Below are positions 6,294-22,665 of a DNA stretch of 32,484 nt, piece after piece (the first letter of the stretch is position 1; every line of letters starts with the position of its first letter). A program made the translations under genes and the position numbers. The stretch spans positions 1 through 32,484 of the forward strand of contig MEDZ01000039.1 of assembly GCA_001724275.1 (NCBI GenBank), written 5' to 3'. A model generated the notes under the pieces. That model was not told the origin of the DNA, did no database searches, and saw only the letters and a list, made by a program, of their open reading frames with translations. Source of the stretch: Gemmatimonadetes bacterium SCN 70-22 (lineage in GTDB: Bacteria > Gemmatimonadota > Gemmatimonadetes > Gemmatimonadales > Gemmatimonadaceae).

Positions 6294-6376
6294 GGCGCGC
6301 CGCCCCTGGTCGTTCCGTCAGCGTGGGCACGTCGGCACCGACGGGACACCCGCCGCCCGCGTGTCCGTATCGCCTC

Positions 6377-7015: not shown

Positions 7016-7045
7016 GGCGACACCTTGTGCAATGGGACTATTCAC

Positions 7046-7066
7046 ATTGTAACACGAGTGACTCGT
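7046..7066 (-). promoter_or_regulatory. Candidate promoter with palindromic operator upstream of the YbjN-like gene
   Basis: On the minus strand a TACAAT (7046-7051, five of six matches to the -10 consensus) sits about 30 bases upstream of the ATG at 7015. Immediately upstream, in the spacer, is the perfect palindrome ACGAGT-g-ACTCGT (7054-7066). A spacer palindrome is a common repressor-site position. No strong -35 box is visible. The AT-rich patch (7020-7100) contrasts with the very GC-rich surroundings. Confidence 0.4.
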
Positions 7067-7089
7067 CGCAGAGAGAGATTCTTCTTCCT

Positions 7090-7142
7090 TATACTCCTCT
7101 CACCGCCGCCGCATGGCCCGCGTCTGAATCCGGCGGTAGCTT
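7090..7142 (+). promoter_or_regulatory. Candidate promoter elements upstream of the serine hydrolase gene
   Basis: Two candidate -10 elements face the hydrolase gene: TATACT (7090-7095) and TAGCTT within ggcggtagctt (7132-7142). The 11-base ggcggtagctt recurs exactly at 23860-23870 before the flavoprotein gene. Neither has a convincing -35 box, so both are suggestions based on position and recurrence. Confidence 0.3.
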
Positions 7143-7190
7143 CTGCGGGCTGTCGTCTCCCCTTCCCGCCACCCGACCCACGCGCCCCCG

Positions 7191-7247
7191 GCCATGCGCC
7201 TCCCCCGCGTTTCCTCCACCCTGAGCGCCCCTGCCATGCGCCTCCCC
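7191..7247 (+). repeat. 15-bp direct repeat duplicating a start codon
   Basis: The 15-mer gccatgcgcctcccc occurs at 7191-7205 and 7233-7247, exactly 42 bases apart and in frame. Each copy contains an ATG (7194, 7236) of the hydrolase gene, so the two candidate starts sit in identical context. Confidence 0.75.
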
Positions 7248-8852
7248 GTCGCGAGACACCTCCCGGCGCTGCTGGTGCTGGCGGCGCTGGCCCCGCAGGC
7301 GCTCCTCGCGACGTCGCTCCGGGCGCAGCGACCCCAGCCGAACGCCGCGGCTCGCCCCGCCCTCGCCTCCCGCACGGTCGACTCCATCGTCGCCGTCGCC
7401 CTCAGGACCTTCCCCACCCCGGGGGTCGCCGTCGCGGTCATCCAGGACGGCAAGGTGGTGGTCGCCAAGGGATACGGGGTGAAGAAGCTCGGTGACCCGG
7501 CCCCGGTGACGCCGCAGACACGTTTCGGCATCGCCTCCAACACCAAGGTCTTCACCGCGGTGGCGCTGGGGATGCTGGTGGAGGAAGGGAAGCTCGAGTG
7601 GGACGCCCCGGTCATCCGCTACCTCCCGCAGTTCGCGATGTACGACCCGTTCGTCACCCGCGAGATCACGATCAAGGACCTCCTGGTCCATCGCAGCGGG
7701 CTGGGGCTCGGCGCGGGTGACCTGCTCTGGTGGCCGGCGTCCACGTACACGCGCGCCGAGATCATGCGGCGGCTGCGCTTCATCAAGCCGGCCACGTCGT
7801 TCCGCTCGGCGTACGCGTACGACAACGTCCTCTACCTGGTGGCGGGCGAGGTAATCGAGACGGTGAGCGGGATGTCGTGGGAGCGGTTCATCGAGTCGCG
7901 CATCCTCCAGCGCGTGGGGATGACGCACAGCACCTCGCGCCACGGCGATGCGGCCACGCCGGGCGACGTGGCGCAGACCCACACGCTCCTCGAGGGGACG
8001 CTCGCGGCGATTGCCCCGATGACGAGTGACAACACGAATCCTGCCGGCGGGATCAACTCGGGGGCCGAGGACATGGCGAAGTGGGTGATGTCGCTCCTGG
8101 ACTCGGGGAGGGTGGGGGACGGGAGCCGGCTGTACCAGCCGGCGACGGCGCGCATGCTCCAGGCCCCGGTCACGCCGACGCCGAACACCCCGCCGCCGGG
8201 CTTCATCGCCCCGCTGGCGAGCGAGTTCTCGTTCTACGCGCTGGGGCTGGGGGTCGGGACCTTCCGCGGGCGCAAGCTCCTGCACCACACGGGGGGGCTC
8301 CCGGGCTACCTGTCGTCGGTGGCGTGGATCCCGTCGGAGCGCGCGGGCGTGGTGGTCCTCACGAACGACGAGTCGCCGACCTTCCTGGCCCTCACCTGGA
8401 CGCTGATGGACCGCGTGCTGCGCACGCCGCAGCCGTTCGACTTCATTGCCGGCTTCGATTCGCTGCGCGCGCGCCAGCAGGTGGCATTGCAGGGGGCTGC
8501 CCGCCAGGCGCAAGCGGCCCGCGACTCGGCGTCGCGCCCGTCGCTCGCCCTCGCGAAGTACGCGGGGCCGTACGCCGACGCGTGGTACGGCGACATCGAC
8601 ATCGCGCACGAGGGGGGCAGGCTGGTCATCCGGTTCTCGCACACGCCGCAGCTGGTGGGCGACATGATCCCGTGGCAGCACGATACCTTCCTGGTGCGGT
8701 GGCGCGACCGCGAGCTGCGCGCCGACGCCTACATCACCTTCATGCTCACGCCGGACGGCGGCATCGACCACGCGAAGATGCTGCCGGCCTCGCCCGACGT
8801 CGACTTCTCCTTCGACTTCCAGGACCTGGAGCTCAGGCCCAGGCGGCGGTGA
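7236..8852 (+). CDS. Secreted serine hydrolase, class C beta-lactamase/PBP fold
   Basis: The 538-residue product has the three family motifs: S-x-x-K (Ser101-Asn-Thr-Lys104), Y-x-N (Tyr195-Asp-Asn197) and His351-Thr-Gly353 in place of Lys-Thr-Gly. The C-terminal part (about 430-535) resembles the DUF3471-like beta-domain often attached to these enzymes. Family members act as D-aminopeptidases, DD-peptidases, esterases or amidases; the sequence does not tell which, and a true beta-lactamase is not implied. The start at 7236 gives a signal peptide of normal length (cleavage near Leu-Arg-Ala-Gln, residue 31). The in-frame ATG at 7194 would add 14 residues. It is the first of four exported hydrolase genes on this strand. 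Confidence 0.88.
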   Translation: MRLPVARHLPALLVLAALAPQALLATSLRAQRPQPNAAARPALASRTVDSIVAVALRTFPTPGVAVAVIQDGKVVVAKGYGVKKLGDPAPVTPQTRFGIASNTKVFTAVALGMLVEEGKLEWDAPVIRYLPQFAMYDPFVTREITIKDLLVHRSGLGLGAGDLLWWPASTYTRAEIMRRLRFIKPATSFRSAYAYDNVLYLVAGEVIETVSGMSWERFIESRILQRVGMTHSTSRHGDAATPGDVAQTHTLLEGTLAAIAPMTSDNTNPAGGINSGAEDMAKWVMSLLDSGRVGDGSRLYQPATARMLQAPVTPTPNTPPPGFIAPLASEFSFYALGLGVGTFRGRKLLHHTGGLPGYLSSVAWIPSERAGVVVLTNDESPTFLALTWTLMDRVLRTPQPFDFIAGFDSLRARQQVALQGAARQAQAARDSASRPSLALAKYAGPYADAWYGDIDIAHEGGRLVIRFSHTPQLVGDMIPWQHDTFLVRWRDRELRADAYITFMLTPDGGIDHAKMLPASPDVDFSFDFQDLELRPRRR

Positions 8853-8945
8853 CGCCGATTTCGTAGCGATAACCTGGTCGTCGCCGGGGTGGCGACCGCG
8901 CCGCTGGCGTGACAGTCTGCAGGATCCCTCCGCCCTTCCATCGTC

Positions 8946-10616
8946 ATGAGCCATTTCACGTCCCGTTCCTTCGCGCGCCTCGTTCCGGCGCTCGCCGCCC
9001 TCGCGCTTCCCTTCGTGGCGGCGCCGCTCGTCGCCCAGCAGGAGGTGGTCGACACCACCACCCTGCGCCAGCTCTACGACGATGAGATGGCCAAGGGGGA
9101 GGTGATGTCGATCGCCAGCTGGCTCACCGACGTCCACGGCCCGCGCCTCACCGGGTCGCCAGGCGCAAGGGCGGCCGGCGAGTGGGCGGTGAAGACGATG
9201 CAGGCCTGGGGGCTGGCCCACGTGGGCTTCGAGTACTGGAGCCCGAAGTTCCCGGGGTGGCGCAACGACCGCCTCTCGCTCCGCGTGGTGGCGCCCACGC
9301 CCTTCGACGTCGCCGTCGCACCCCGCGCCTGGTCGCCGGGCACCAGGGGGGAGGTGAAGGGGGAGGCGGTCGTCGCGACCATGACGACGTGGGGCGACAC
9401 GGCGAAGTACCGGGGGGCGCTCAAGGGGAAGTACGTCCTCCTCGGCGCCGCCCCCACGCTCGCGCCGCGAGCGACGCCGGACGCCAAGCGCTTCACCGAC
9501 GAGGAGCTCGACAAGATGGCCGCGGCCGGGGTGCCCGACCCTCGCACGGGGGGCTTCGCCATCCCGCGCGACCCTGCGGCGATGGGGGCCATGATGCGCC
9601 GCTTCGGTGGCAACGTCTTCCGCCCGGCCAACGACACCGCGGCGCTGCGCTGGTTCGAGCGGCAGGGAGTGCTCGGCATCCTCCTCCCCGCGCGCGGCGA
9701 CGACGGGACCATCTTCACCGACAACGGCTACCCGCGCACGGCGGGCGTGGCGCAGGTCCCGATGGTGCACGTGGCGGGCGAGCACTACGGGCGCATCGCG
9801 CGCATCCTCGAGAAGGGGGTGAAGGTCACGCTCTCGCTCGACATGGCCAACACCCGCACGCCCGAGGCCGAGTCGTTCAACATCGTGGCCGAGATTCCCG
9901 GGAGCGACCCGGCGGTGAAGGACGAGGTCGTGATGCTGGGGGCGCACTTCGACTCGTGGCACGCGGGGACGGGGGCCACCGACAATGCCGCGGGTTCGGC
10001 GGTGATGATGGAGGCGATCCGCCTGATCAAGGCGAGCGGGCTCAAGCCGCGCCGCACGATCCGCATCGCGCTCTGGACGGGCGAGGAGCAGGGGCTGTTC
10101 GGCTCGCGCGAGTACGTCGCGCGCCACTTCGGCGAGCGCGTCTTCCGCCGGGACTCGTCAGGCTTCGTCCCCACCGACACGGTGCTCGCGCTCCCGGCGT
10201 ACGAGAAGCACGCCGGCTACTTCAACGTCGACAACGGGACGGGGCGCATCCGCGGGGTGTACCTGCAGGGGAACACCCAGGTGAAGGACGCCTTCAGCGC
10301 GTGGATCGAGCCCTTCCGCGACAAGGGGGTCACGACCATCACCCCGGCCAACACCAGCGGGACGGATCATCAGGCGTTCGACGCCATCGGGCTGGGCGGG
10401 TGGCAGTTCATCCAGGATCCGGTGGAGTACGACACTCGCACGCACCACTCCAACCAGGACCTGTACGAGCGCCTCGTGCCCGACGACATGAAGCACAACG
10501 CGGCGGTGGTGGCCGGCTTCGTGTGGCAGGCGGCGCAGCGCGCCACCCGGCTCCCGGGGAAGGCGGGATGGCCCATCGTGATCACGGAGAAGAAGGCGAA
10601 GCCGATCTCGGAGTAG
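8946..10616 (+). CDS. Secreted M28-family zinc aminopeptidase
   Basis: The 556-residue product has a Sec signal peptide (cleavage near Val-Ala-Gln, about residue 31), a PA-like insert region (roughly 120-300), then an M28 peptidase domain. The di-zinc and catalytic residues can be placed: His334-Phe-Asp336, bridging Asp346 in G-A-T-D-N-A-A-G, Glu380-Glu381 in G-E-E-Q-G-L (first the general base, second a ligand), an Asp in N-V-D-N-G-T-G, and His500/His501 near the C-terminus. The site looks intact. Such enzymes remove N-terminal residues from peptides outside the cytoplasm. The gene lies 93 bases after the serine hydrolase. No good ribosome site precedes the ATG, but the signal peptide starts right there. 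Confidence 0.92.
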   Translation: MSHFTSRSFARLVPALAALALPFVAAPLVAQQEVVDTTTLRQLYDDEMAKGEVMSIASWLTDVHGPRLTGSPGARAAGEWAVKTMQAWGLAHVGFEYWSPKFPGWRNDRLSLRVVAPTPFDVAVAPRAWSPGTRGEVKGEAVVATMTTWGDTAKYRGALKGKYVLLGAAPTLAPRATPDAKRFTDEELDKMAAAGVPDPRTGGFAIPRDPAAMGAMMRRFGGNVFRPANDTAALRWFERQGVLGILLPARGDDGTIFTDNGYPRTAGVAQVPMVHVAGEHYGRIARILEKGVKVTLSLDMANTRTPEAESFNIVAEIPGSDPAVKDEVVMLGAHFDSWHAGTGATDNAAGSAVMMEAIRLIKASGLKPRRTIRIALWTGEEQGLFGSREYVARHFGERVFRRDSSGFVPTDTVLALPAYEKHAGYFNVDNGTGRIRGVYLQGNTQVKDAFSAWIEPFRDKGVTTITPANTSGTDHQAFDAIGLGGWQFIQDPVEYDTRTHHSNQDLYERLVPDDMKHNAAVVAGFVWQAAQRATRLPGKAGWPIVITEKKAKPISE

Positions 10617-10722
10617 GGCGAGCGCGCTCGTCCGGGGGCGGCGCCCTCGGGGGTGGCGAATCACCGTGCGGCGAGGGAGAATGGTGGGGAATCCACTCCC
10701 CGCCGTCTCTCCGTTCACGCTC

Positions 10723-11895
10723 ATGACTTCCCGCCGCTCCGTCATCAAGCTCGGCGCCGCCGCCCTCGTCGCCCCGATGTTCAATCGCGGGCGCTTCGCG
10801 CTCCCGCACATCCCGAACCAGGAGTACTCGAAGCGCGCCATCGACCTCATGCAGCGCGCCATCGTGATCGACATGCTGGCGCCGCTGCACATCGGGTCCA
10901 ACGGGAACCGGTGGCTGCAGAAGCCCGATTCCATCACCGCCGAGGACTTCGCGCCGTTCCGGGCGTCGGGGATCGACGTCTTTCACACCGCGGTCGGCTT
11001 CGGCGGGCCTAACGCGTACATCAGCGGGCAGCAGTTCTTTCACCGGCAGAACGCGATGATCGCCGGGCGCCCCGACCTCTTCATGCGCATCGACTCGGCC
11101 GACGACTTCGCCAAGGTGAAGGGGTCGGGGCGCATCGGTATCCTGCTGGGGGCGCAGAACTCGGATCACTTCATCCGCCCCGACGCCACGCGCGACCGGT
11201 TGGCGACCGTGGACGAGTTCTTCGTCTATGGGCAGCGCGTTTCGCAGCTCACCTACAACTCGCAGAACTGGTTCGCCAGCGGCTCCACCGAGCGCGTGGA
11301 CGGCGGGATCTCCGACATGGGGGCGGCGCTCATCGAGCGGATGAACCGGGCCGGGATGGCGGTGGACACCTCGCACTGCGGCGACCGGACCACGCTCGAC
11401 GCGTTCGCGCTGTCGAGGAAGCCGGCGCTGGTGACGCATTCCAATGCCCGCGCCCTGGCCAACGGCCACCCGCGCTGCAAGCCGGACGAGGTGATCCGCG
11501 CGGTGGGAAAGGCGGGGAGCGTCATGGGGATCACCGGCGTGCGCATGTTCGTGAAGGGGAGCGAGCCGACGACGATCGAGGACTTCCTGAACCACATCGA
11601 CTACGTGGCCCGGATGATCGGCGTGGAGCACGTCGGGATCGGGAGCGACAGCGACCTGCAGGGCTACGACGACCTGCCGCCTGACGAGTACAAGGCGCTC
11701 AAGGAGAGCTACAAGGGGAGTTACGGCTTCCGCGACAAGATCGACATCGAGGGCATCGACCACCCCCGGCGGATGTTCGACGTCACCGAGGGGCTCATCC
11801 GGCGCAAGTACGGCGACGACCAGATTCTCGGGATCCTGGGGGGGAACTTCCAGCGCGTGCTGGGCGACATCTGGACGGGGATCCCGGCCAAGTGA
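10723..11895 (+). CDS. Tat-exported M19 (membrane dipeptidase)-family hydrolase with atypical metal site
   Basis: The 390-residue product starts at an ATG giving a short Tat-like signal (S-R-R-S-V-I-K-L, then an Ala-rich stretch). Several renal-dipeptidase landmarks are present: His218 in D-T-S-H, His239 in T-H-S-N, and the G-S-D-S-D element at 308-311. The usual first metal motif (H-x-D in D-G-H-N-D) is not seen; the aligned stretch reads V-I-D-M-L-A-P-L-H. The bridging Glu appears to be Gln145 in L-L-G-A-Q-N. I recall an M19 branch with a similar G-F-Q-N motif, so this may be a subfamily trait rather than decay. Substrate could be a dipeptide or another amide/lactone. Its TGA overlaps the GTG of the next gene. 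Confidence 0.85.
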   Translation: MTSRRSVIKLGAAALVAPMFNRGRFALPHIPNQEYSKRAIDLMQRAIVIDMLAPLHIGSNGNRWLQKPDSITAEDFAPFRASGIDVFHTAVGFGGPNAYISGQQFFHRQNAMIAGRPDLFMRIDSADDFAKVKGSGRIGILLGAQNSDHFIRPDATRDRLATVDEFFVYGQRVSQLTYNSQNWFASGSTERVDGGISDMGAALIERMNRAGMAVDTSHCGDRTTLDAFALSRKPALVTHSNARALANGHPRCKPDEVIRAVGKAGSVMGITGVRMFVKGSEPTTIEDFLNHIDYVARMIGVEHVGIGSDSDLQGYDDLPPDEYKALKESYKGSYGFRDKIDIEGIDHPRRMFDVTEGLIRRKYGDDQILGILGGNFQRVLGDIWTGIPAK

Positions 11896-12149
11896 CGCCG
11901 AACGGGCCGTCCCGAACGTCCGTCGCCTTGCCGCTGGATTCGACGCTGACCTGCCCGGCGTGCGGGGCGCGCGAGACGGTTCGCATGCCCATCGATGCAT
12001 GCCGGTTCTTCCACGAGTGTCGGGGGTGTGGCACCCTCCTCCGGCCCAAGGCGGGCGACTGCTGCGTCTTCTGCTCGTACGGCGACGTGCCGTGCCCGCC
12101 CAGGCAGTCGGGCGGGTCCTCCCCCTGCTCCCCAACCCGAGCCCCGTAG
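11892..12149 (+). CDS. GDCCVxC-family small cysteine-rich protein (zinc-ribbon-like)
   Basis: The 85-residue product contains C-P-A-C, C-R-G-C and the signature G-D-C-C-V-F-C-S-Y-G followed by V-P-C-P-P. It matches the GDCCVxC domain family, some of whose members are annotated as selenoproteins at one of these cysteines. All positions here are Cys codons. The first two C-x-x-C pairs look like a zinc ribbon and the last cluster could bind metal or be redox-active. Function is unknown; homologues are often near metal-resistance genes, but none is seen here. It starts at a GTG overlapping the dipeptidase stop (GTGA), implying translational coupling, and the next gene starts four bases after its stop. 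The C-terminal 15 residues look unconserved. Confidence 0.8.
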   Translation: MTPNGPSRTSVALPLDSTLTCPACGARETVRMPIDACRFFHECRGCGTLLRPKAGDCCVFCSYGDVPCPPRQSGGSSPCSPTRAP

Positions 12150-12153
12150 GTCG

Positions 12154-14598
12154 ATGCCCTCTCGCTCCCTCCGCGCCGTCGCCCGCCTGGCCCTCTCCTC
12201 TCTCTGTGTCGCGCTGGCGCTCCCCGCCGGCGCCGCGGCGCAGCGCCCCGACACGCTGCGCATTGCCGGGCTGAGAGCCCCGGTGGAGGTGCTGCGCGAC
12301 GCCTGGGGGATTCCGCACATCTACGCGAAGAACGAGCACGACCTGTTCTTCGCCCAGGGGTACACGGCGGCGCGCGATCGCGCCTTCCAGTTCGAGCTCT
12401 GGCGCCGGCAGGCAACGGGGACGGTGGCCGAGCTGCTGGGCGAGCGCGAGCTCGCGCGCGACATCGGCGCCCGCCTGTTCAAGTATCGCGGGAGCCTGGC
12501 GGCCGACCTGGCGCACTACCATCCGCGCGGGGCGCTGATCGTCAACGCCTTCGTGGACGGAGTGAACGCCTACGTGGACGAGGCGGCGCGCAACCCGGCG
12601 CTCATTCCGCTGGAGCTCAGGATGCTGGGCGCCAGGCCCGGGCGGTGGACGCCGGAGGTGGTGATCTCCCGGCACCAGGGGTTGTTGGGCAATCTCACGC
12701 AGGAGCTGCAATACGGGCGCTTCGTGGCCCGCCATGGGGCGGAGCTGCTGAAGAAGGTCGAGTGGTTCCACCCGGGGCCGGGCGAGCCGGCGCTCGACCT
12801 CGATCCGGCCATCGACAAGGAGGGGCTCTTCGAGCCGATCCTCGACCTCTACAACGCGTACCGCAACCCGGTGCGCTTCGAGCCGCGCGACCTGCAGTCG
12901 GCGTATCGCGGGAGCGAGGAGGCGGGGCGGCGCCTGGCGCAGGTGCGCGCCGAGGCGGACTCGGTGCTGGCGTGGAACGCGCGGCGCGACATCGGGAGCA
13001 ACAACTGGGTCGTGAGCCCGCGCCTCTCGCTGAACGGACGCGCGATCATGGCCAACGACCCGCACCGGGCGCAGGCGGCGCCCTCGCTCCGCTACTTCGT
13101 GCACCTGGTGGCGCCGGGGTGGAACGTGATCGGCGGCGGCGAGCCGACGGTGCCGGGCGTGTCGATCGGGCATAACGAGTACGGCGCCTGGGGGCTCACG
13201 GTGTTCGGCACCGACGGCGAGGACCTGTACGTCTACAAGGTGAACCCGGCCAACCGCTCGCAGTACCGCTTCCGCGGGGTGTGGGAGTCGATGCGGACGG
13301 TGCGCGAGACCATCCCGGTGAAGGGGCGCCAGGCGGAGACGGTGACGCTCAAGTACACGCGGCACGGGCCGGTGGTGTACGAGGACACAGTGCGCGGGGT
13401 GGCCTACGCGGTGCGGGCGGCGTGGATGGAGCCGGGGGGTGCCCCGTACATGGCGTCGCTGCGCATGGACCAGGCGAGGACGTGGGAGGAGTTCCGCGAG
13501 GCGTGCAGCTACTCCAACATCCCCGGCGAGAACATGGTGTGGGCCGACGTGAAGGGGAACATCGGGTGGCAGGCGGTGGGGATCGCCCCCATCCGCCCGC
13601 GCTCGAGCGGGCTGGTCCCCGTCCCGGGCGACGGGCGCTACGAGTGGGCGGGCTACCTCCCCATCCGCAGCAAGCCTAACGCGTACAACCCCGCCGAGGG
13701 GTTCATCGCGACCGCGAACAACAACCTGACGCGGGAGGACTATCCGTTCCGCGACGCCATCGGGTGGTCGTGGGCCGACCCGTTCCGCTTCGCGCGCATC
13801 GCCGAGGTGCTGGGCTCGGGGCGTCGCGTCTCGATGACCGACATGATGAAGCTGCAGAACGACTACACGTCGCTCCCCGCGCGGGCGCTCGTCCCGCTCC
13901 TGGCCGGGTTGAAGGGGGGGAGCGAGGCGGTGGAGCGCGCGCGCGTGGCGCTGCTGGCGTGGGACCACGTGCTGGACCGGGAGTCGGTGGCGGCGGGGAT
14001 CTACGAGGCGTGGTACCGGCGGCTGGCGGAGAACACCCCGGCGGTGGTCGTCCCCGCCAGCGCCCGCGCCATGACGCGGGGGATCCCGGCCAAGCGCATC
14101 ATCGACTGGCTGATTGCGCCTGGCGGAGAGTTCGGCGCCGTCCCCACGGCCGGGCGCGACAGCCTGCTGCTGGGGAGCCTGGACGAGGCGGTGCGGGAGC
14201 TGACGCGGCGCTACGGCGCCGACATGGCGGCGTGGAAGTGGGGGAGCTACCACCAGGTGCAGCTCCTGCACCCCATGAGCGCCGCGCTCAGCGACCAGCT
14301 GCGCCGCAAGTTCGAGGTGGGGCCGTGGCCGCGCGGCGGCGACGGCAACACCCCCGGGGCCACCGGCGGCGGCGAGAACCAGACGGCTGGAGCCTCGTTC
14401 CGGATGATCGTCGAGGCGGGGGACTGGGACGGCGCCGTCGGCACGAACACACCGGGGCAGTCGGGCGACGTCGAGAGCGCGCACTACCGCGACCTGTTCG
14501 AGCTGTGGAAGGACGATCGGTACTTCCCGGTCAAGTACAGCCGGCAGGCGGTGGAGGGGGTGACGCGGGAGCGGGTGGTGCTGGTGCCGGGGTGGTGA
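12154..14598 (+). CDS. Penicillin acylase family (S45) Ntn hydrolase
   Basis: The 814-residue preproprotein has a signal peptide (cleavage near Ala-Ala-Ala-Gln, residue 28), an alpha-chain region (about 29-281) and a beta-chain starting at the predicted nucleophile Ser282 in I-G-S-N-N-W-V-V. Autocatalytic cleavage before this Ser yields the active heterodimer. Family landmarks include N-D-P-H after the nucleophile, H-N-E-Y-G-A-W-G-L-T, and T-A-N-N-N in the second half. Members hydrolyse amide bonds of penicillins, acyl-homoserine lactones or other N-acyl compounds; the substrate cannot be read from sequence. In this setting of exported peptidases, periplasmic use of acylated amino compounds or quorum-signal degradation are both possible. 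Confidence 0.92.
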   Translation: MPSRSLRAVARLALSSLCVALALPAGAAAQRPDTLRIAGLRAPVEVLRDAWGIPHIYAKNEHDLFFAQGYTAARDRAFQFELWRRQATGTVAELLGERELARDIGARLFKYRGSLAADLAHYHPRGALIVNAFVDGVNAYVDEAARNPALIPLELRMLGARPGRWTPEVVISRHQGLLGNLTQELQYGRFVARHGAELLKKVEWFHPGPGEPALDLDPAIDKEGLFEPILDLYNAYRNPVRFEPRDLQSAYRGSEEAGRRLAQVRAEADSVLAWNARRDIGSNNWVVSPRLSLNGRAIMANDPHRAQAAPSLRYFVHLVAPGWNVIGGGEPTVPGVSIGHNEYGAWGLTVFGTDGEDLYVYKVNPANRSQYRFRGVWESMRTVRETIPVKGRQAETVTLKYTRHGPVVYEDTVRGVAYAVRAAWMEPGGAPYMASLRMDQARTWEEFREACSYSNIPGENMVWADVKGNIGWQAVGIAPIRPRSSGLVPVPGDGRYEWAGYLPIRSKPNAYNPAEGFIATANNNLTREDYPFRDAIGWSWADPFRFARIAEVLGSGRRVSMTDMMKLQNDYTSLPARALVPLLAGLKGGSEAVERARVALLAWDHVLDRESVAAGIYEAWYRRLAENTPAVVVPASARAMTRGIPAKRIIDWLIAPGGEFGAVPTAGRDSLLLGSLDEAVRELTRRYGADMAAWKWGSYHQVQLLHPMSAALSDQLRRKFEVGPWPRGGDGNTPGATGGGENQTAGASFRMIVEAGDWDGAVGTNTPGQSGDVESAHYRDLFELWKDDRYFPVKYSRQAVEGVTRERVVLVPGW

Positions 14599-14769
14599 TG
14601 CCGGTGTCCTAAGGCGCGCGGGGACTTCTTCTCGAGACTCGCGCAGGTCGCGTTCTTGGCGACGCGTCTACTCACCGTCTCTCCAAGTTCCGACGGCGCA
14701 GGAGGCAGCGAAAGACATTCGAGAGACGCCTCCCTCAGACGATGCGCACGACGCGACTGGGGGAATGCC

Positions 14770-15129
14770 ATGCATCTGTACGCACAGGTGACAGTCAACG
14801 CCGCGCCACGGCGCAAGCGGGAGCGATGGCGGCGTCGCCTTCTCGTGCCCTCGATCCTCTGCGCCGGTGCACTGTCGTCACCGCTCTCGGCGCAACACGC
14901 AGCGATCGTACGGGTGACGAGTTCGAACCTGCGCGCACGGCCATCGACCGAGGCGAGGATCGTGGGTCGCGTGGCGCGCGGGGACACGGTTCAGCAGCTT
15001 GTAGGCCGAGAGGATGGATGGTCGCGCGTCCGTGTCGGCGTGCAGGAGGGCTGGATGCGCACGTCATTCCTTGTGCGCATCGAACTGCTGCCGCCGCCAC
15101 CACCGCGTGCCGACGCGTCCTCTCCTTGA
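14770..15129 (+). CDS. Exported bacterial SH3-domain protein, possibly the 5' part of a split gene
   Basis: The 119-residue product starts at an ATG preceded by GGGGGAA. It has an arginine-rich n-region, a signal peptide (cleavage near Leu-Ser-Ala-Gln, about residue 40) and one bacterial SH3 domain (about 45-100: V-T-S-S-N-L-R-A-R-P-S-T, then G-D-T-V, G-W-S-R-V and G-W-M). It ends in a Pro-rich linker. SH3 domains of this type bind peptidoglycan or stabilise envelope proteins. The frame continues open past the TGA at 15127-15129 directly into the barrel protein at 15178, so this may be the first part of an SH3-barrel fusion interrupted by a stop. Confidence 0.7.
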   Translation: MHLYAQVTVNAAPRRKRERWRRRLLVPSILCAGALSSPLSAQHAAIVRVTSSNLRARPSTEARIVGRVARGDTVQQLVGREDGWSRVRVGVQEGWMRTSFLVRIELLPPPPPRADASSP

Positions 15130-15177
15130 GGGGCAGAGGTACCGGAAGCGGTCGAGCGGACTTCCATCGACACCGCA

Positions 15178-15744
15178 ATGTCTGCGCCGAGTACCGAAAC
15201 GAGCGACGTCGATCCACGCCTAGCCGGGCGAAGCCGTGCGCGTGCGAATGGGAAGTCCACGATCCCCGGGAGCCGCGATCCTTCTCGGCTCGGGATCATG
15301 GGCGGAGTGGCATCGGGTTCGTTCGATTCCAACGCCTTGATGGGCCCCGCACTCCGTGCATATGCGCGGATTCCGATGTACGACGCACCGCTGGCCATGC
15401 GCGCCGACCTGGAGGTAAGTCGAGTCAGCGCGCGTGACATGTCACCAGGAGACGAATTCACCATCACGGATCTCCGCGCCATGCTCGGCGCCGATTTCGG
15501 TGTCCCGGTGAGTCGATCTGTTGAGGTCTTCGTGACCGGCGGCCTCGGGCTTTCGCGAAATACTCAGCGACTTCGTCTCGACCTGGGCAGCATCGTCGAT
15601 GCTCTCGACATTCAAGACGCCAGCTGGTCCTTGGCCCACGACATCGGATTCGGTGTGAAGCTCGGACGCATCCTGCTCATCGAGTCACACTTCCTCGCGA
15701 GCGACGGTGCGCCATATCGAGTCCTCGCGGGTATTCGCTTCTGA
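15178..15744 (+). CDS. Outer-membrane beta-barrel protein lacking its own signal peptide
   Basis: The 188-residue reading from the ATG at 15178 has a Ser/Arg-rich, linker-like N-terminus (about 1-35). It then shows alternating strands with G-G-V-A-S-G, D-L-E-V-S-R-V, F-V-T-G-G-L-G-L and a C-terminal V-L-A-G-I-R-F, a BAM-type ending. There is no signal peptide and no ribosome site before this ATG, which is unusual for a barrel. It is in the same frame as the SH3 gene upstream, with 16 open codons between the TGA and this ATG. It is therefore probably the C-terminal half of one precursor, expressed only by readthrough or inactivated. Confidence 0.6.
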   Translation: MSAPSTETSDVDPRLAGRSRARANGKSTIPGSRDPSRLGIMGGVASGSFDSNALMGPALRAYARIPMYDAPLAMRADLEVSRVSARDMSPGDEFTITDLRAMLGADFGVPVSRSVEVFVTGGLGLSRNTQRLRLDLGSIVDALDIQDASWSLAHDIGFGVKLGRILLIESHFLASDGAPYRVLAGIRF

Positions 15745-15777
15745 CCTCTTCCTCATGTCCCAAGGAGAGCTTTCGAT

Positions 15778-16122
15778 ATGCGCAAGTCACGCCTGTCCAT
15801 CGGAGCCGGGTACTTCCTCGCGGTCCTTGCCTCGAGTGGTTGCTACGCGGGGTTTGCATCAGGGGCCTCTGGCGTACCGGGATTCCTGTACGCCAACACG
15901 GTCACGCCCGAAGTGGGGACCTCTGTCACCTCGAACGTCGCAGGGACCAAGGTGGGGCAGGCCGAGTGCGTGAGCTATCTCGGACTCATTGCATCTGGCG
16001 ACTGCTCCGTCGAGGCGGCTGCGGCGTCTGGCAAGATCACTCGCATCCACTCCGTCGCCCGAAAGGTCGAGAACGTCCTCGGCATCTTCGCAAAGGTGAC
16101 GATCATCGTCACCGGAGAGTAG
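15778..16122 (+). CDS. TRL-like family lipoprotein
   Basis: The 114-residue product has an AAGGAGA ribosome site upstream and a lipoprotein-like signal ending at Cys22 (L-A-S-S-G-C; the -3 position is Ser, so the lipobox is imperfect). The mature part matches the TRL-like pattern: G-F-L-Y-A-N-T near the start, G-T-K-V-G-Q-A-E-C, a helix with L-G-L-I-A-S-G-D-C-S-V-E-A-A-A, then G-K-I-T-R-I-H-S-V and a final I-I-V-T-G-E. The family's function is unknown. The gene lies 33 bases after the barrel sequence and is probably in its transcript, in an envelope-protein neighbourhood. The name comes from a tRNA-associated locus elsewhere; no tRNA is visible here. Confidence 0.8.
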   Translation: MRKSRLSIGAGYFLAVLASSGCYAGFASGASGVPGFLYANTVTPEVGTSVTSNVAGTKVGQAECVSYLGLIASGDCSVEAAAASGKITRIHSVARKVENVLGIFAKVTIIVTGE

Positions 16123-16186
16123 GCGCTTCGGATCACGTTGCCGACTACGTGGAGAGCCACGGAGACAGCGGCCAGAGGTGTCGTCC

Positions 16187-16216
16187 TTGACAGGTCGACC
16201 GAGGATGCCGTATCGT
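16187..16216 (+). promoter_or_regulatory. Sigma70-type promoter for the cohesin-dockerin operon
   Basis: A perfect -35 box TTGACA (16187-16192) and a -10 box TATCGT (16211-16216, four of six matches) are separated by 18 bases in the 216-base gap before the operon. This is the best housekeeping-type promoter I see in the window. Transcription would start near 16223, leaving a leader of roughly 115 bases to the ATG at 16339. Confidence 0.6.
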
Positions 16217-16338
16217 AGCGTCCGCTTGCCGTGGGTCGTGGCGACGTGGATTAGCAGGTGATCGTGCGCAGCGCGCCGCATCTCAGGACCGACGGTCGCT
16301 CCGGCATCATCGCGGAACACGAACGAGAGGGGGTAGGG

Positions 16339-18030
16339 ATGGGGGTGGCATTCGGGAATGTGTGTGTTTGTGTCGTGCACGCGCGCAGATGTTCGGTATT
16401 TGCGGGTCAAGCCGTATCACGACGTCGGTGCATCGCCCTGCTCGCGGGCACCGTCGCCGTACTACAAGCCTCCTGTGGAGGCGGTGGCGGCAGCGACGGT
16501 CCATCCGCGCCACCCGTCAGCAACACGCCAGCGTCCGTCCGCCTCTCGCTGGCAGGGCCGGTCACCCTGACCTCGGGCTCGAGCAGCGTCGTGACTGCCC
16601 AGGTCTTCACGAGTGACGGGCGACAACTCACCAACGCCGCCGTCACGTGGGCGTCGACCGATGCCGCCATCGCCCGCGTGCAGGACGGGAACATCACCGC
16701 CCTGAAAGTGGGAACCGCGACGATCACCGCTACGGCTGGCTCGGTCGCGTCATCGGGCTTGGCGGTCACGGTCACGCCTGGGGCGCCCGCGCAGGTGGCG
16801 GTGACGATCCAGCCGGCCGGTGCTGCCGTCGCGCAAACGTTTGCGATACAACCCGTCGTGGAGATCCAGGACGGCAACGGCAACCTCGTGCCATCGTCCA
16901 CTCTGCCAATCACGGTGACGCTCGCGTCTGGCGGTGGTGTGCTCTCCGGTACTACGACAGTCACTGCGGCCGCAGGTGTCGCGAAGTACACCGACCTGTC
17001 GCTCTCTGGGGCGGTTGGGCCGCGCACACTGAGCTTCGTGGCGACGGGGCTCTCGACGGGGACGTCGAGCAGCTTCGTGCTGGCGCCGGGGGCACCGGCG
17101 CAGCTCCTGATCACGCGCCAGCCGGTGGGCGGCGCTGTGTCGGCACCGTTGCTGACGCAGCCAGTGGTCGAGCTTCGCGACGTCGCCGGGAACCTCGCGA
17201 CGACTGCGTCGACGCCCGTCACGGCAAGTGTGACGTTCGGCGGAGGGACGGTTGGCGGCACCTCGTCCGTCGTCCCTATCAGCGGCGTCGCTCGCTTCAC
17301 CGATCTGTCGATCTCCGGTCCCGTGGGCGATCGCGAGCTGACCTTCTCCGTTGCTGGCGCGCCCGCGGTGACGTCGACGCGTTTCCCGCTCGCACTGATC
17401 GTGTACGGCCTCACGAACCAGAAGATCCAGATTGTCGATGTGGGCGCATCGATCACGCCGGTGTCGTCAGCGGGCACGCCACCGACCTTCGTGTCGCGTG
17501 CGGGGACGCTCGCCAGCGTCGACAACGCGGGGAAGATCACGGCGCGGCAGGATGGTGAGGCGTGGGTCGTCTCGTCGCTTCCTGGTGGTGGTGATTCCGT
17601 GCTCACCATCATTCCGCGCGCGGCGGGAGTGCCGCTCCTGCGGACGAATCTCACAGGGTATGCGGTGCAGCGTGGTAGCACGGTGACCGTGGATCTGGTG
17701 CTCGACCCGCGGTCAACTCCGGTCGGATCGGTGAGCCTCTTCGTGACGGCGGCATACGATACCACCGAATTCGCAGGGGTGATCGCGCTCGTTCCGTCAC
17801 CGGGGGCGAACATATCCATAAATCAACCGACAACCCGGGTCGTTCGAGTGAGCATCGCATCGGCGACCGGGATCACGACGCCGATCACTTTTGCGCGCCT
17901 GCAATTCATCGCGGGGGCACCGGGTGATGTCCTGACCCTGAACCTCACTGCGATCGACGCGTACGCGCCCGACGGATCGGACCTTCGCTCCCGGATGACC
18001 TCCACCTACTATCCGTTGGTGCCAAGATGA
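16339..18030 (+). CDS. Ig-like repeat lipoprotein with C-terminal cohesin-like domain
   Basis: The 563-residue product starts at an ATG with GAGAGG eight bases upstream; an in-frame GTG at 16258 is less likely. A long n-region leads to a hydrophobic core and Cys46 followed by G-G-G-G-G-S, typical of a lipoprotein tether, though Gln at -3 makes the lipobox imperfect. Then come a Big_2-like Ig domain (about 64-147), two about 100-residue repeats of one Ig-like unit (147-249 and 250-354, each beginning P-G-A-P-A-Q) and a further Big-like segment (355-429). The C-terminal domain (about 430-563) follows the cohesin pattern: G-S-T-V-T-V-D-L-V, then V-T-A-A-Y-D-T-T-E-F and F-A-R-L-Q-F-I. It probably acts as a surface stalk presenting the cohesin. 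Its TGA overlaps the next ATG (ATGA). Confidence 0.75.
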   Translation: MGVAFGNVCVCVVHARRCSVFAGQAVSRRRCIALLAGTVAVLQASCGGGGGSDGPSAPPVSNTPASVRLSLAGPVTLTSGSSSVVTAQVFTSDGRQLTNAAVTWASTDAAIARVQDGNITALKVGTATITATAGSVASSGLAVTVTPGAPAQVAVTIQPAGAAVAQTFAIQPVVEIQDGNGNLVPSSTLPITVTLASGGGVLSGTTTVTAAAGVAKYTDLSLSGAVGPRTLSFVATGLSTGTSSSFVLAPGAPAQLLITRQPVGGAVSAPLLTQPVVELRDVAGNLATTASTPVTASVTFGGGTVGGTSSVVPISGVARFTDLSISGPVGDRELTFSVAGAPAVTSTRFPLALIVYGLTNQKIQIVDVGASITPVSSAGTPPTFVSRAGTLASVDNAGKITARQDGEAWVVSSLPGGGDSVLTIIPRAAGVPLLRTNLTGYAVQRGSTVTVDLVLDPRSTPVGSVSLFVTAAYDTTEFAGVIALVPSPGANISINQPTTRVVRVSIASATGITTPITFARLQFIAGAPGDVLTLNLTAIDAYAPDGSDLRSRMTSTYYPLVPR

Positions 18031-18563
18031 CTCTGACCCAGCGCTGCACCGCGCGAAGGCGGCTGTCGACGATGGCATGGATTGTCGCCGCTGCCGCCCT
18101 GGTCACGGCGTGCCGAGACTCGACGCCAGCGCTCCCGCGGACTCAGCTTCGCTCGCTAAGCGCGGTGCAAGCACGGCTGACCTTCTCGAACACGTCTCCC
18201 AAGAAAGGAGATGAGGTCGTGGCGTACATTGGCGTGCTGTCCGGCGTTGGCGTCCAGGCTGTCGGGAGCTTCACCGCCAGGATCGCGTACGATTCGACGC
18301 TACTTGCCTTCGTTGGCGAGGGTCCGCATCGCTCGGACGGAATGCGTGCCGTGAATCCGCTCCCCGGCGAGACCCGAGTGGCGGGGGTCTCCACGTCTGG
18401 ATTCCACGAAGGGGAGCTCGCTGCGCTTCGATTCGTCGCGCGCCGTGGAGCGCTGGTCGGCCAGCCATCCCTCGTGATCGATGAACTGCATTCCGTCGAT
18501 CGTGTCGATCTGCTGCCGAAGGTTTCGTCACGGCAGGTCGTTGCGCAGCCCGCAGGGCAATGA
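18027..18563 (+). CDS. Small cohesin-like lipoprotein
   Basis: The 178-residue product has a basic n-region, hydrophobic core and lipobox L-V-T-A-C with Cys29, so an anchored lipoprotein is likely. The mature part is a single cohesin-like beta-sandwich (about 50-170): F-S-N-T-S-P-K-K-G-D-E-V, then F-T-A-R-I-A-Y-D-S-T-L-L-A-F-V and E-G-E-L-A-A-L-R-F-V-A-R. This matches the cohesin order of an opening strand, the 'Y-D-x-x-x-L-x-F' strand, and a late 'L-x-x-L-x-F' strand. Cohesins bind dockerins, and a dockerin is encoded two genes downstream. It overlaps both neighbours by ATGA, which suggests coupled translation. The call rests on pattern, not on a profile search. Confidence 0.7.
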   Translation: MTLTQRCTARRRLSTMAWIVAAAALVTACRDSTPALPRTQLRSLSAVQARLTFSNTSPKKGDEVVAYIGVLSGVGVQAVGSFTARIAYDSTLLAFVGEGPHRSDGMRAVNPLPGETRVAGVSTSGFHEGELAALRFVARRGALVGQPSLVIDELHSVDRVDLLPKVSSRQVVAQPAGQ

Positions 18564-19048
18564 GCCATTCCCATGCTTGGCTCGCAACTCTCCTTGCGAG
18601 CGCGGTTGTGCTCTCGCCGGGGATCGCGTGTGGAGGGCGGGCGGTTCGCACTTCGGGAGGCGACCAGGGCGCGACGCGCGACAGCGTAACGGAAATCCGA
18701 AGCGATCTCCCCACCACGTCGTCCACAGCCCCCATCGGTGTCCCGCGCCTGATGCGAATGGAACCGGAATCCGCCCGGATTGGACCGGGCTCGCTCGTAC
18801 AGGTGCGCATCACCGGGGCAAACTTCGAACCGGGACGCTCCGGCGACAATGTCGTCGAGCTTGGGCCGATCCGCTTGACGCAGGTACCGGCCAACGAGGC
18901 GGGAACCGCGCTGCAATTTGTCGTGCCCGACCGAGTACCGGACACAACCGAGGCCCCTCCACGTCGGCTCTTTCCGGGTGACTATCCCGTGACGATCACG
19001 ACGCGAAAAGGGAAGAGTAACGCGCTGAAGTTCCGGGTGCTGCCATGA
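18560..19048 (+). CDS. IPT/TIG-domain lipoprotein
   Basis: The 162-residue product has a signal peptide ending at a possible lipid-modified Cys24 (P-G-I-A-C-G-G; only a moderate lipobox match). A Thr/Ser/Asp-rich linker follows (about 25-62), then one IPT/TIG Ig-like domain (about 65-160): M-E-P-E-S-A-R-I-G-P-G-S, V-R-I-T-G-A-N-F, and P-G-D-Y-P-V-T-I-T-T-R-K-G-K-S-N. TIG domains are adhesive or structural modules in surface proteins. It is the third gene of the ATGA-coupled operon, between the cohesin-like lipoprotein and the dockerin propeller, so a role as third surface partner is inferred. No catalytic motif is visible. Confidence 0.72.
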   Translation: MSHSHAWLATLLASAVVLSPGIACGGRAVRTSGGDQGATRDSVTEIRSDLPTTSSTAPIGVPRLMRMEPESARIGPGSLVQVRITGANFEPGRSGDNVVELGPIRLTQVPANEAGTALQFVVPDRVPDTTEAPPRRLFPGDYPVTITTRKGKSNALKFRVLP

Positions 19049-21558
19049 CGCGATCCTTCGTACATCGTGGGTTCCTGCTGCTCTGGGCCACTGGGGTGAC
19101 TGCCACGATTCTCCCGTCGAACGCTCTTGCGCAGCGCGGGGAGAGCGAAGCGGACGACGTGAAGGAGCGCGTCGCCGCGTTTCGCGAAGCGCGAGCTGAT
19201 GCGTCTGGGCAAATTCCGCCGGGCGCCTGGGCGACGGCATGGAATGAATGGCAATCCCTGTCGCCGTGGAGCGCTAGCCTGGCCACCGATGCATCGTGGC
19301 GCCCCTTGGGTCCATTTGGAATGTTCGGCAACCAGATCAACTTTGGCGGCATCGGCCAGTTGGTCGCGGGACGAGTGACCTCCATCAGCGTTCACCCCAC
19401 TGATCCGCAGACGCTCTACGTCGGCGCGGCGAGTGGAGGCGTCTGGAAGTCCACCACGGGTGGCGCGACATGGGCGCCGCTGACCGATTCACAGTGCTCG
19501 CCTGCAATCGGCGCTGTGGCGGTGGATCCGGTCAATCCTGCGTTGGTGTATGCGGGCACGGGTGAGATCAATACCTTCGAGTTTGCTGGATGCGGCGTGC
19601 TGAGTTCGACTGATGGAGGAGCTACCTGGTCGGCGCCGACGTCCAATCCCGTTGGCTCGTATCACGGCAAGATCCTTGTGGATCCGGCGACTGCGGGCAC
19701 GAGCGGGCAGACGACGCTGGTGGCGGCGACTTCGGGTGGCCTGTATGTCTCCACGAACAGTGGCGCGACTTGGACGCGGAAGGTTACCGGCGTCGCGTGG
19801 AGCGCGGTTGCCCTGCCCGGACGGCCGGGAACCTACTTCGCGGCGGTGACCAGCCCCTCGAGAACCCCTGCGTCCACCGTCTGGCGTTCCACAGACGGAG
19901 GCGCGACGTGGGTGGCTCTTCCGACTCCGTTGTCCAGTATGTATCAGGTGGCCCGCGTGGAGCTGGCCACGACTTCTGCGTCCAACAGCACGGTCATTGC
20001 CTTCGCCGCAGATTACAGCACTCGCAAGTTCGCGGGCCTGTATCGCTGGAGTGAAGTGACCCAGCAGTGGACGCAGCTCCCCTCCTCGGGGCTGGTGACA
20101 TCGGCGTCCAGTTACCCATTCACGATCGGCGAGCAGAGCGAATACAACCTTGTCGTTGCTGTCGACCCGCGGAACGCACAGCGAATCTGGGTGGCAGGTG
20201 TTGGTGCGTTCCTCTCCGAAGATGGCGGACTCACCTTCCGCAGCGTGGCCAAGACTGTCCACGTCGACTGGCATGCCATCGCCTTCAGCCCATCGGACCC
20301 CGATCACATGTACGCCGGGACCGATGGTGGGCTGTACGTGTCGTATGATGCCGGTCGCACCTGGCGGGCGCAGAATAACGGCTTGGCGATCGCACAGTTC
20401 TATCCCGGGATTTCGGTGCACCCTTCCGGGCAATGGATTTTCGGCGGGCTACAGGACAACCAGGCGGCGTACTTCAGCGGGTCGAAGGTCTGGAGCAACT
20501 TCGCCACGATGGGCGACGGAGGCTACACGGCGGTCAACTACCTCGACCCACGCATCGTGTACGTCACGCACGCATTCCTCAATTTCATCGAACGAAAAGG
20601 GTCAGGACTCGCGACAGAGTCGCGTTCGGCGGGGATCAGTTCGCTGGATCGGAGCGGGGCGAGGCGCCCGTTGGTGATGCATCCCCTCGTACCGACGACG
20701 CTCTACTTCGGCACACAACGGCTCTATCGGACCACGAACGAAGGGCAGTACTGGATCCCCATCTCGACGGACTTGACGCTCGGGTCTGGCTACATCACTA
20801 CCATCGCGATCGCCCCCTCCAATCCGAACGTGATCTACGTTGGGACCAGCGATGGTGTCATCTCGAGAACGCTTGACGGCGGAATCACCTACTCGCAGTT
20901 CGCCTTCGCCGTGAGCCGCTATTTCACGCGCATCGCGGTGAACCCCACCAATCCGCTGCACATCGTTGCCACCGCCTCGACCTTCGGGGCGCCGACGATC
21001 ACTCAGTCCACCGACGGCGGGGCGACCTTCTACTCGAGCATCAGTTCCAAGCTCGCAGGGATACCTGTCCACACCGCGCTCTTTCTCCCGGGGACGTCGA
21101 CGATGATGTTCGGGACGGAGTTCGGCGTCATCCAGACGGTCGACGGTGGAACGACGTGGACGGCGGGACCGCCCGGATTCCCCAACACCGTCGTCTACGA
21201 CTTGGCGTACGTCCCCGCAACCACGACGGTCGTCGCCTCGACGTACGGTCGCGGCATGTTCGCGTTCAATGTGGGACCCTCCGTGGCAGTACTTCGTGGT
21301 GACATCGATCGCGATGGTGCGATCACGGCCGCGGATGCGCTGCTGCTCCAACAGGCGCTGGTTGGCGTCGACCTGGCGCCGCTGACCCCGTATCCTCACG
21401 GTGACACAAACTGCGATAGAACGCTCGATGGGGTGGATGTGCTGCTCACTCTTCGACTTGCGGTCGGCCTGCCGAATTCCTCCAGTGCGTGCGTCGGTAC
21501 GGTCGCGCGACCCGGGACCATGGAGCCCGGGCGGAGGATCACGGTCCTCGCGAACTAG
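19045..21558 (+). CDS. Secreted BNR/sortilin-type beta-propeller with C-terminal type I dockerin
   Basis: The 837-residue product has a Sec signal peptide (cleavage near A-L-A-Q, about residue 30) and no lipobox. A short helical segment precedes repeated Asp-box motifs (T-x-G-G-A-T-W, S-x-D-G-G) over about 85-745, forming one or two propellers of the sortilin/BNR type. The last about 70 residues are a dockerin. Loop 1 has Asp753, Asp755, Asp757 and Asp764; loop 2 has Asp787, Asn789, Asp791 and Asp798, the EF-hand-like calcium spacing of type I dockerins, each followed by a Leu-rich helix. It has no obvious glycosidase residues. As the last gene of an operon with two cohesin-like lipoproteins, it is the likely secreted cargo held on the surface. 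Confidence 0.85.
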   Translation: MTRSFVHRGFLLLWATGVTATILPSNALAQRGESEADDVKERVAAFREARADASGQIPPGAWATAWNEWQSLSPWSASLATDASWRPLGPFGMFGNQINFGGIGQLVAGRVTSISVHPTDPQTLYVGAASGGVWKSTTGGATWAPLTDSQCSPAIGAVAVDPVNPALVYAGTGEINTFEFAGCGVLSSTDGGATWSAPTSNPVGSYHGKILVDPATAGTSGQTTLVAATSGGLYVSTNSGATWTRKVTGVAWSAVALPGRPGTYFAAVTSPSRTPASTVWRSTDGGATWVALPTPLSSMYQVARVELATTSASNSTVIAFAADYSTRKFAGLYRWSEVTQQWTQLPSSGLVTSASSYPFTIGEQSEYNLVVAVDPRNAQRIWVAGVGAFLSEDGGLTFRSVAKTVHVDWHAIAFSPSDPDHMYAGTDGGLYVSYDAGRTWRAQNNGLAIAQFYPGISVHPSGQWIFGGLQDNQAAYFSGSKVWSNFATMGDGGYTAVNYLDPRIVYVTHAFLNFIERKGSGLATESRSAGISSLDRSGARRPLVMHPLVPTTLYFGTQRLYRTTNEGQYWIPISTDLTLGSGYITTIAIAPSNPNVIYVGTSDGVISRTLDGGITYSQFAFAVSRYFTRIAVNPTNPLHIVATASTFGAPTITQSTDGGATFYSSISSKLAGIPVHTALFLPGTSTMMFGTEFGVIQTVDGGTTWTAGPPGFPNTVVYDLAYVPATTTVVASTYGRGMFAFNVGPSVAVLRGDIDRDGAITAADALLLQQALVGVDLAPLTPYPHGDTNCDRTLDGVDVLLTLRLAVGLPNSSSACVGTVARPGTMEPGRRITVLAN

Positions 21559-21629
21559 TCACTCCCGAAAGTCGCCGCCTTCCGTAGGGCGTCGTACTCA
21601 CCTCTGACTCCCGAAGTCGCTCCACACTG

Positions 21630-21661
21630 ATCGCTCGCCGTGCATCCGCTCGGCGAGCGAT
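21630..21661 (+). terminator. 11-bp perfect hairpin downstream of the dockerin operon
   Basis: The arms ATCGCTCGCCG (21630-21640) and CGGCGAGCGAT (21651-21661) pair perfectly around a 10-base loop, about 70 bases after the operon's last stop codon. It is followed only by a weak T-containing stretch. Its placement between the operon and the arginase gene supports a terminator. Confidence 0.5.
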
Positions 21662-21740
21662 ACTTATGCGCCAAACGCGCATTCCCCCTGCATACCCTGC
21701 AACTCCATGCGCTGCCCTTGGACGTTAGGCACCGGCACGC

Positions 21741-21746
21741 TACCCT
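21741..21746 (+). promoter_or_regulatory. TAnnnT -10-like element seven bases before the arginase ATG
   Basis: TACCCT (21741-21746) is followed by seven bases and then the ATG at 21754. There is no Shine-Dalgarno sequence. This is the layout expected of a leaderless transcript, and the same spacing is seen before the gene at 23878. No -35 box is evident. Confidence 0.35.
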
Positions 21747-21753
21747 TGGGCCC

Positions 21754-22665
21754 ATGACCTCCATCCGACTCATTGGCGTTCCCATGGACCTCGGCGCCTC
21801 GCGGCGCGGCGTCGACATGGGACCGTCCGCCGTCCGCTATACCGACCTCCGCGAACGCCTCGAACAACTCGGCCACTCCGTCGAGGACGCCGGCAACGTC
21901 GCCGTCCCGTTCCGCGAGGACGCGGCCAAGGGGGCCCAGCGCGGCGCCCGGTACCTGGGCGCCATTGCCGATGTCTGCACCGACGTCGCCCTCAAGGTGC
22001 GCGACGCCCTCGCCGCAGGCGCCACGCCCATCGTCCTCGGCGGCGACCACGCCCTCTCCGCCGGCTCGGTGGCCGGCGCCGCCGCCCACCTTGCCGCCAG
22101 GGAACAATCGTTAGGCGCGCTGTGGATCGACGCCCACGGCGACCTCAACACCCCCGCCACCTCGCGCTCCGGGAACGTGCACGGGATGCCGCTGGCCGCC
22201 CTCCTGGGTCACGGCGACAAGGCGATGGCGAGCATCGCCGGACGTACCGGTGCCGTGAAGGCGAGCGACGTCGCCCTGGTGGGCGTGCGCGACCTCGAGG
22301 CGTCGGAGAAGGACCACATCCGCAAGTGGAACCTCTCCGCCTTCACCATGCGCGCCCTCGACGAGCTGGGCGTCCGCAAGGTGATGGAGGACGCGCTCGC
22401 CATCGCCACCCGTTCCACGGCGGGGCTCTGGGTCTCGTTCGACATGGACGTGATCGACCCGTCCGACGCCCCGGGAGTGGGGACGCCGGTCCCCGGCGGG
22501 ATCACCTATCGCGAGGCACACCTGATGATGGAGATGATCGCCGACACCGGGAAGCTGGTGGGAATGGACGTGGTGGAGGTGAACCCGGTCCTCGACGTCC
22601 ACAACCGCACGGCCGAAGTGGCCCGCGAGCTGATCCTCAGCGCCTTCGGCAAGCGCATCCTCTAG
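21754..22665 (+). CDS. rocF: Arginase
   Basis: The 303-residue product has the full length of the family (about 300) and all ureohydrolase manganese ligands: His99 in G-G-D-H-A-L-S, Asp126, His128 and Asp130 in D-A-H-G-D, and Asp230 and Asp232 in S-F-D-M-D-V-I-D-P. The N-terminal I-G-V-P-M-D-L-G and the S-G-N-V-H-G-M-P segment point to arginase rather than agmatinase. It would hydrolyse L-arginine to ornithine and urea in the cytoplasm. The ATG at 21754 was chosen because homology begins there; a longer in-frame start at 21640 would fall in the upstream hairpin. The ornithine cyclodeaminase gene follows after 18 bases, so the pair is probably an operon. Confidence 0.93.
   Translation: MTSIRLIGVPMDLGASRRGVDMGPSAVRYTDLRERLEQLGHSVEDAGNVAVPFREDAAKGAQRGARYLGAIADVCTDVALKVRDALAAGATPIVLGGDHALSAGSVAGAAAHLAAREQSLGALWIDAHGDLNTPATSRSGNVHGMPLAALLGHGDKAMASIAGRTGAVKASDVALVGVRDLEASEKDHIRKWNLSAFTMRALDELGVRKVMEDALAIATRSTAGLWVSFDMDVIDPSDAPGVGTPVPGGITYREAHLMMEMIADTGKLVGMDVVEVNPVLDVHNRTAEVARELILSAFGKRIL

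Follow-up and report, generated by a model that had tools for sequence, protein, structure and literature searches.

Many genomes are known to encode cohesins and dockerins that belong to no cellulosome, usually without a clear partner or purpose, and the four-gene locus described here raises the question of whether such a system can be complete within one operon, and what it would hold on the cell. As two sockets (cohesins) and one plug (dockerin) apparently lie together in a single operon of one genome, it becomes possible to test directly which partners pair, whether pairing depends on calcium, and what the system is used for. The window analyzed is an entire contig of 32,484 nucleotides (32 kb), part of the 4.7-Mb genome, 99.98% complete, of a Gemmatimonadaceae bacterium. 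The operon is most probably a minimal non-cellulosomal cohesin–dockerin display unit with exchangeable cargo, for which we infer binding, calcium dependence, and a surface location.

Organization of the operon

The operon consists of four overlapping plus-strand genes (16339–21558; Table 1). An earlier reading of this DNA from its letters alone (hereafter, the sequence-only reading) had described four same-strand genes with ATGA at every junction, and exact 4-base ATGA overlaps are indeed present at 18027, 18560, and 19045; 4-base overlaps also occur at most junctions of the relatives L039, L040, L041, L047, and L049. Gene 1 may begin at either GTG 16258 or ATG 16339. The flanking elements proposed by the same reading stood only in part. 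The promoter match at 16187–16216 exists but can hardly be called clear, since 0.8 ± 0.8 such sites are expected by chance in this stretch, and the hairpin at 21630–21661 is real (−25.3 kcal/mol, z −4.6) but weak as a terminator, as it lacks a T run and is not recognized in scoring for intrinsic terminators. The neighboring genes are ordinary: a TRL-like family protein (PF13146; 15778–16122) lies just upstream of the operon, and an M28 peptidase, a penicillin-amidase family protein, and an arginase-family gene are found at 8946–14598 and 21640–22665.

Table 1 Features of the operon, with positions in the window
Feature	Position	Strand	Evidence
Sigma-70-like promoter match, TTGACA-18-TATCGT	16187..16216	+	10/12 matches, upstream of operon; weak evidence
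Gene 1, probable lipoprotein with Ig repeats and a cohesin at its C terminus	16339..18030	+	Big_2 (E 7e-7); canonical lipoboxes in orthologues
Cohesin domain of gene 1	17617..18027	+	A1 profile, E 8e-10; AlphaFold pLDDT 85.8, best Z 13.7
Gene 2, single-cohesin lipoprotein	18027..18563	+	Lipobox VTAC (standard)
Cohesin domain of gene 2	18123..18557	+	AlphaFold pLDDT 90.6, best Z 14.4; PF00963, 15.5 bits
Gene 3, small exported protein with weak IPT/TIG similarity	18560..19048	+	Cohesin fusions in L044 and L052
Gene 4, secreted Vps10/BNR propeller with C-terminal dockerin	19045..21558	+	Pfam domains; cleavable signal peptide, no lipobox
Beta-propeller body (Sortilin-Vps10 PF15902, BNR, YCF48-like)	19366..21264	+	phmmer to GH74-fold chains
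Type I dockerin, two calcium loops (D753..D764, D787..D798)	21283..21504	+	PF00404, loop residues
Calcium loop 2 residue Cys790, probably disulfide-bonded to Cys816	21412..21414	+	
Cys816 near dockerin C terminus	21490..21492	+	
Terminal hairpin, 11 bp, without T run	21630..21661	+	After last gene, folding energy

Identity of the cohesin domains

Searches with the Pfam cohesin profile PF00963 (curated cut-off, 24.1 bits), proposed by the sequence-only reading, gave a divided answer: the gene 2 domain stays below the cut-off (Table 1) and that of gene 1 has no Pfam match at all, PF00963 included, but relatives do match, namely 8 of the 19 gene 2 family members on their own (best 2e-7) and 2 of 13 gene 1 relatives (best 6e-6). 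As PF00963 found no cohesin in the host genome, a family profile was needed. A gene 2 query of 200 genomes of the phylum gave matches in 20, and profiles were made from 19 aligned cohesin domains of the gene 2 family (A1) and from those of the gene 1 family (A2). All eight PDB chains matched by A1 (E up to 10) are cohesins. The gene 1 and gene 2 cohesins are homologous (A1 against A2 in hhalign, 97%, E 2.6e-11), and A1 retrieves the gene 1 cohesin from the host genome with the E value given in Table 1.

Structure prediction addressed whether these domains fold as cohesins or as another beta-sandwich, and both are predicted as the nine-strand jelly-roll cohesin fold. The AlphaFold models (pLDDT and best Z in Table 1) superpose on cohesins with an rmsd of 2.3 over 124 residues for gene 2 and 2.9 over 132 residues for gene 1, and the top structural matches, the first 46 for the gene 2 model and the first 28 for the gene 1 model, are all cohesins. 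Foldseek and VIA-align also return YcnI, CLIPPER, p53, integrin, and pilin sandwiches, mostly below the cohesins. Judged by family profile and predicted fold, both domains are genuine cohesins. Conservation among the cohesins is higher in strands 3, 5, 6, and 8 than in the other strands (p 0.006); in known cohesin complexes, these strands form the dockerin-binding face.

The dockerin and the propeller

Two dockerin calcium loops of the canonical D-x-D/N-x-D...D form lie in the C-terminal 90 residues of gene 4, and the loop residues named by the sequence-only reading (D753/D755/D757/D764 and D787/N789/D791/D798) are exactly as stated. Against PF00404 (curated cut-off, 22.9 bits), the profile suggested for checking them, the excised domain scores 26.8 bits and passes, as does the gene 4 match in the genome search (25.4 bits), with the whole protein just under the cut-off (21.3 bits). 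All 15 family dockerins match PF00404, and a profile built from them retrieves 29 sequences from the PDB (E up to 0.01, best 6e-11), nearly all of them dockerins or dockerin-bearing enzymes. The residue two places ahead of the final loop Asp is Ala in 13 of 15 sequences in repeat 1 and 11 of 15 in repeat 2; the recognition positions thus resemble the symmetric Ala-containing pairs known from C. cellulolyticum. The family further has a conserved Cys pair, one as the fourth residue of loop 2 and one near the C terminus: of the 30 sequences with the loop Cys, 29 have both, and the reading frame of the sole exception, L058, apparently breaks off. This conservation suggests that Cys790 and Cys816 form a probable disulfide, giving a "stapled" dockerin. 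A dockerin stapled in this way, together with lipoprotein anchors, would be useful for protein display.

In the PDB, the propeller is most closely related to xyloglucanases of the GH74 type, and NCBIfam calls its nearest family a glycosylhydrolase, under its own cut-off; gene 4 might accordingly be read as a dockerin-bearing GH74-like glycoside hydrolase, and the operon as what remains of a cellulosome with a single enzyme. We consider this very improbable. The Asp of the GH74 RTDIGG motif, which we take to be catalytic, aligns with Ala129 of the propeller, and GH74 xyloglucanase activity was rejected on this ground. The genome contains no match to the cellulose-binding module CBM3 (PF00942; the positive control matched), and its one GH9 enzyme (contig C2) is without a dockerin, in agreement with the earlier claim that the system is non-cellulosomal. 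As for the other marks of a cellulosome, no scaffoldin with several cohesins was found, the only two cohesins detected in the genome being in separate proteins, and instead of dockerin-bearing plant-wall glycosidases there is a sole full dockerin, on the propeller. A cellulosome remnant was rejected on the CBM3, GH9, and dockerin findings. Ala129 at the position of the GH74 catalytic Asp makes a binding role for the propeller, presumably toward an extracellular polymer or protein, more likely than hydrolysis of the GH74 type on xyloglucan.

Probable envelope anchors and the proposed display mechanism

Genes 1–3 had been described as three lipoproteins, which holds fully for gene 2 with its standard lipobox; those of genes 1 (LQASC) and 3 (GIAC) are irregular here, but most orthologues of genes 1–3 have good lipoboxes. 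The IPT/TIG assignment of gene 3 is likewise weak, as the protein has no Pfam match and its homologues match TIG at only E 0.013–0.027. Since the domain of gene 3 is fused to a cohesin in a single protein in L044 and L052, gene 3 probably has an accessory role in the anchor. The assignment of anchor and cargo roles fits, because the propeller carries a signal peptide that can be cleaved and not a lipobox; the description of a one-scaffold device does not, as genes 1 and 2 encode two separate cohesin proteins.

In the proposed mechanism, genes 1 and 2 would provide envelope-anchored lipoproteins with one cohesin each, the former a long form on an Ig stalk and the latter a short form, with the gene 3 protein as a probable accessory. 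The propeller, soluble and secreted, would plug its calcium-loaded C-terminal dockerin into either cohesin and by this docking would stay on the cell. Across the phylum, plug and socket recur as a general module, whose exchangeable cargo is a peptidase in several of the sister operons.

It may be asked whether the complex faces outward. Diderm lipoproteins may face the periplasm, the only export signals visible are the signal peptide and lipobox, with no sign of surface export in the sequence, and the propeller has a YCF48 assembly-factor chain as one of its weak relatives; the complex could thus be an envelope scaffold or assembly device that assembles in the periplasm. The long Ig stalk and the M6 and S8 peptidases that serve as alternative cargo (see below) fit an extracellular setting better, and we regard the periplasmic arrangement as rather unlikely, with display on the outer surface as the preferred reading.

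Cohesins and dockerin in the host genome

One full dockerin and two cohesins were found in the host genome, all in this operon, which is therefore a complete and exclusive plug-and-socket set as far as the searches reach. The genome searches scored loosely preselected candidates (A1, 19/77; A3, the dockerin alignment, 28/62; PF00404, 14/14; A2, 52/52), so that an additional cohesin or dockerin of highly divergent sequence may have escaped detection. Below the cut-off, two separate open reading frames at G000:C45:29863-30953 (L002 and L004) each give a partial PF00404 match to a single loop; these are possibly other EF-hand-like loops.

Propeller relatives are abundant in the same genome (51 matching stretches in some 20 proteins), and none of these paralogues has a full dockerin in searches with PF00404 and the dockerin profile; it is thus the cohesins, and not the propeller, that the dockerin accompanies. 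No cohesin lies beside the dockerin-less paralogues, whereas dockerin-peptidase genes elsewhere do adjoin cohesins. These observations bear on the view that the beta-sandwich domains act as adhesion modules of a general type, cohesin-like in fold but binding no dockerin, the operon then encoding separate surface adhesins. Such a view can draw on the weak PF00963 similarity of this copy and on Foldseek, which aligns YcnI and the CLIPPER adhesin domain well too. However, cohesins rank above the other folds in the structural matches, and cohesin genes track the dockerin rather than the propeller, being found beside dockerin-peptidases as well; we consider the adhesion-module view improbable and retain the cohesin–dockerin unit. 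One of the dockerin-less Vps10/BNR propeller paralogues lies in the window itself (2056–5688, minus strand).

Comparison with known systems

The locus shares with the type I pairs of cellulosomes (Clostridium thermocellum, C. cellulolyticum, and C. acetobutylicum) the cohesin fold, the two-loop dockerin, the Ala-rich recognition positions in both repeats, and a secreted cargo with a C-terminal dockerin. Unlike cellulosomes, the operon has no multi-cohesin scaffoldin, CBM3, or dockerin-bearing glycosidase; its anchors are lipoproteins and not SLH or sortase modules, and its dockerin has the conserved Cys pair. Among the closest matches to the predicted folds (Z 13–14) are the cohesins of Archaeoglobus fulgidus (2xdh) and of Clostridium perfringens glycosidases (2jh2, 2vo8, and 2w1n), systems that similarly have few cohesins, outside any cellulosome, but differ in that here a single operon encodes all the parts, including lipoprotein anchors of its own and a propeller as cargo.

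A "planctosome" has been proposed for freshwater Planctomycetes, comprising a cohesin anchor and dockerin-bearing peptidases with no link to cellulose (PMC6461901); its anchor is a lamin-tail protein of 2,210 residues, accompanied by a cohesin/dockerin adaptor (PMC6461901). Sister Gemmatimonadota operons also carry dockerin-bearing peptidases, in resemblance to the planctosome (PMC6461901), whereas the present operon has small lipoproteins and a propeller cargo, with neither a peptidase nor a lamin-tail anchor. Cohesin/dockerin proteins are also present in ANME archaea (PMC9012536), their syntrophic sulfate-reducing partners (PMC10553843), and Cloacimonadota (PMC8542988), where plug and socket are likewise put to non-cellulolytic or peptidase-bearing uses, but in multi-cohesin or scattered sets, and the four-gene layout is not described (PMC9012536, PMC10553843, PMC8542988). 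The Gemmatimonadota operon thus belongs to the known non-cellulosomal cohesin–dockerin kind, as a compact Gram-negative variant. What sets it apart is the closed four-gene unit with small lipoprotein sockets, exchangeable cargo, and a probably stapled dockerin; a search by title and abstract found no published description of cohesins, dockerins, or Vps10 proteins in Gemmatimonadota, the main 2009 review lying outside its scope.

Linkage and cargo exchange across the phylum

Among the 200 genomes of the phylum, 25 have both cohesin and dockerin, 8 cohesin only, 5 dockerin only, and 162 neither (Fisher p 3e-20, kinship ignored). Within the class, 31 of 35 dockerins lie no more than 6 kb from an A1 cohesin; of the other four, one is beside an A2-type cohesin (L124), two form part of longer arrays, and the last sits where a contig ends. 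Conversely, some cohesin-positive genomes (G086 and G120) show no clear dockerin in the vicinity, and in five distant genomes dockerins occur but cohesins of this family do not. The relatives that share the operon are assigned to Gemmatimonadaceae, Gemmatimonas sp., and Gemmatimonadetes/Gemmatimonadota. The full four-gene order is kept in L039, L040, L041, and L047, and about ten other loci show it with losses, rearrangements, or fusions. The sequence-only reading had held that homologous operons lacking the dockerin would speak against it; those found by the gene-order search keep the dockerin.

The cargo, by contrast with the single propeller envisaged in that reading as one cargo of unknown use, varies between sister operons, which carry peptidases and other bodies. 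M6-type metallopeptidases with HExxH take this place in L051, L054, L058, L119, L120, L123, and L126, S8 subtilases with catalytic motifs in L133 and L135, RCC1 repeats in L057 and L122, and beta-helices in L121. This exchange between sister operons is natural evidence for a modular plug. Domain identity and fold, conserved linkage, and cargo exchange all come directly from the computation. We put forward tentatively a wider possibility, that in Gemmatimonadota a single disulfide-stapled plug serves phylum-wide as a general envelope docking port, lipoprotein cohesins in each operon receiving an exchangeable secreted cargo, and that calcium, and perhaps also the redox state of Cys790–Cys816, controls docking.

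Two loci carry dockerins in other settings. In another class, an M4 thermolysin-type protein has a dockerin (L131 in G009), and its short contig contains no cohesin of this family. In a genome of the same order (G013), L121 has four consecutive large open reading frames (5928–19951), each with an N-terminal dockerin, adjoining a cohesin lipoprotein; a cohesin was detected just before the dockerin in three of the four, and both of the frames scanned for their bodies have beta-helices. Such proteins could chain head to tail.
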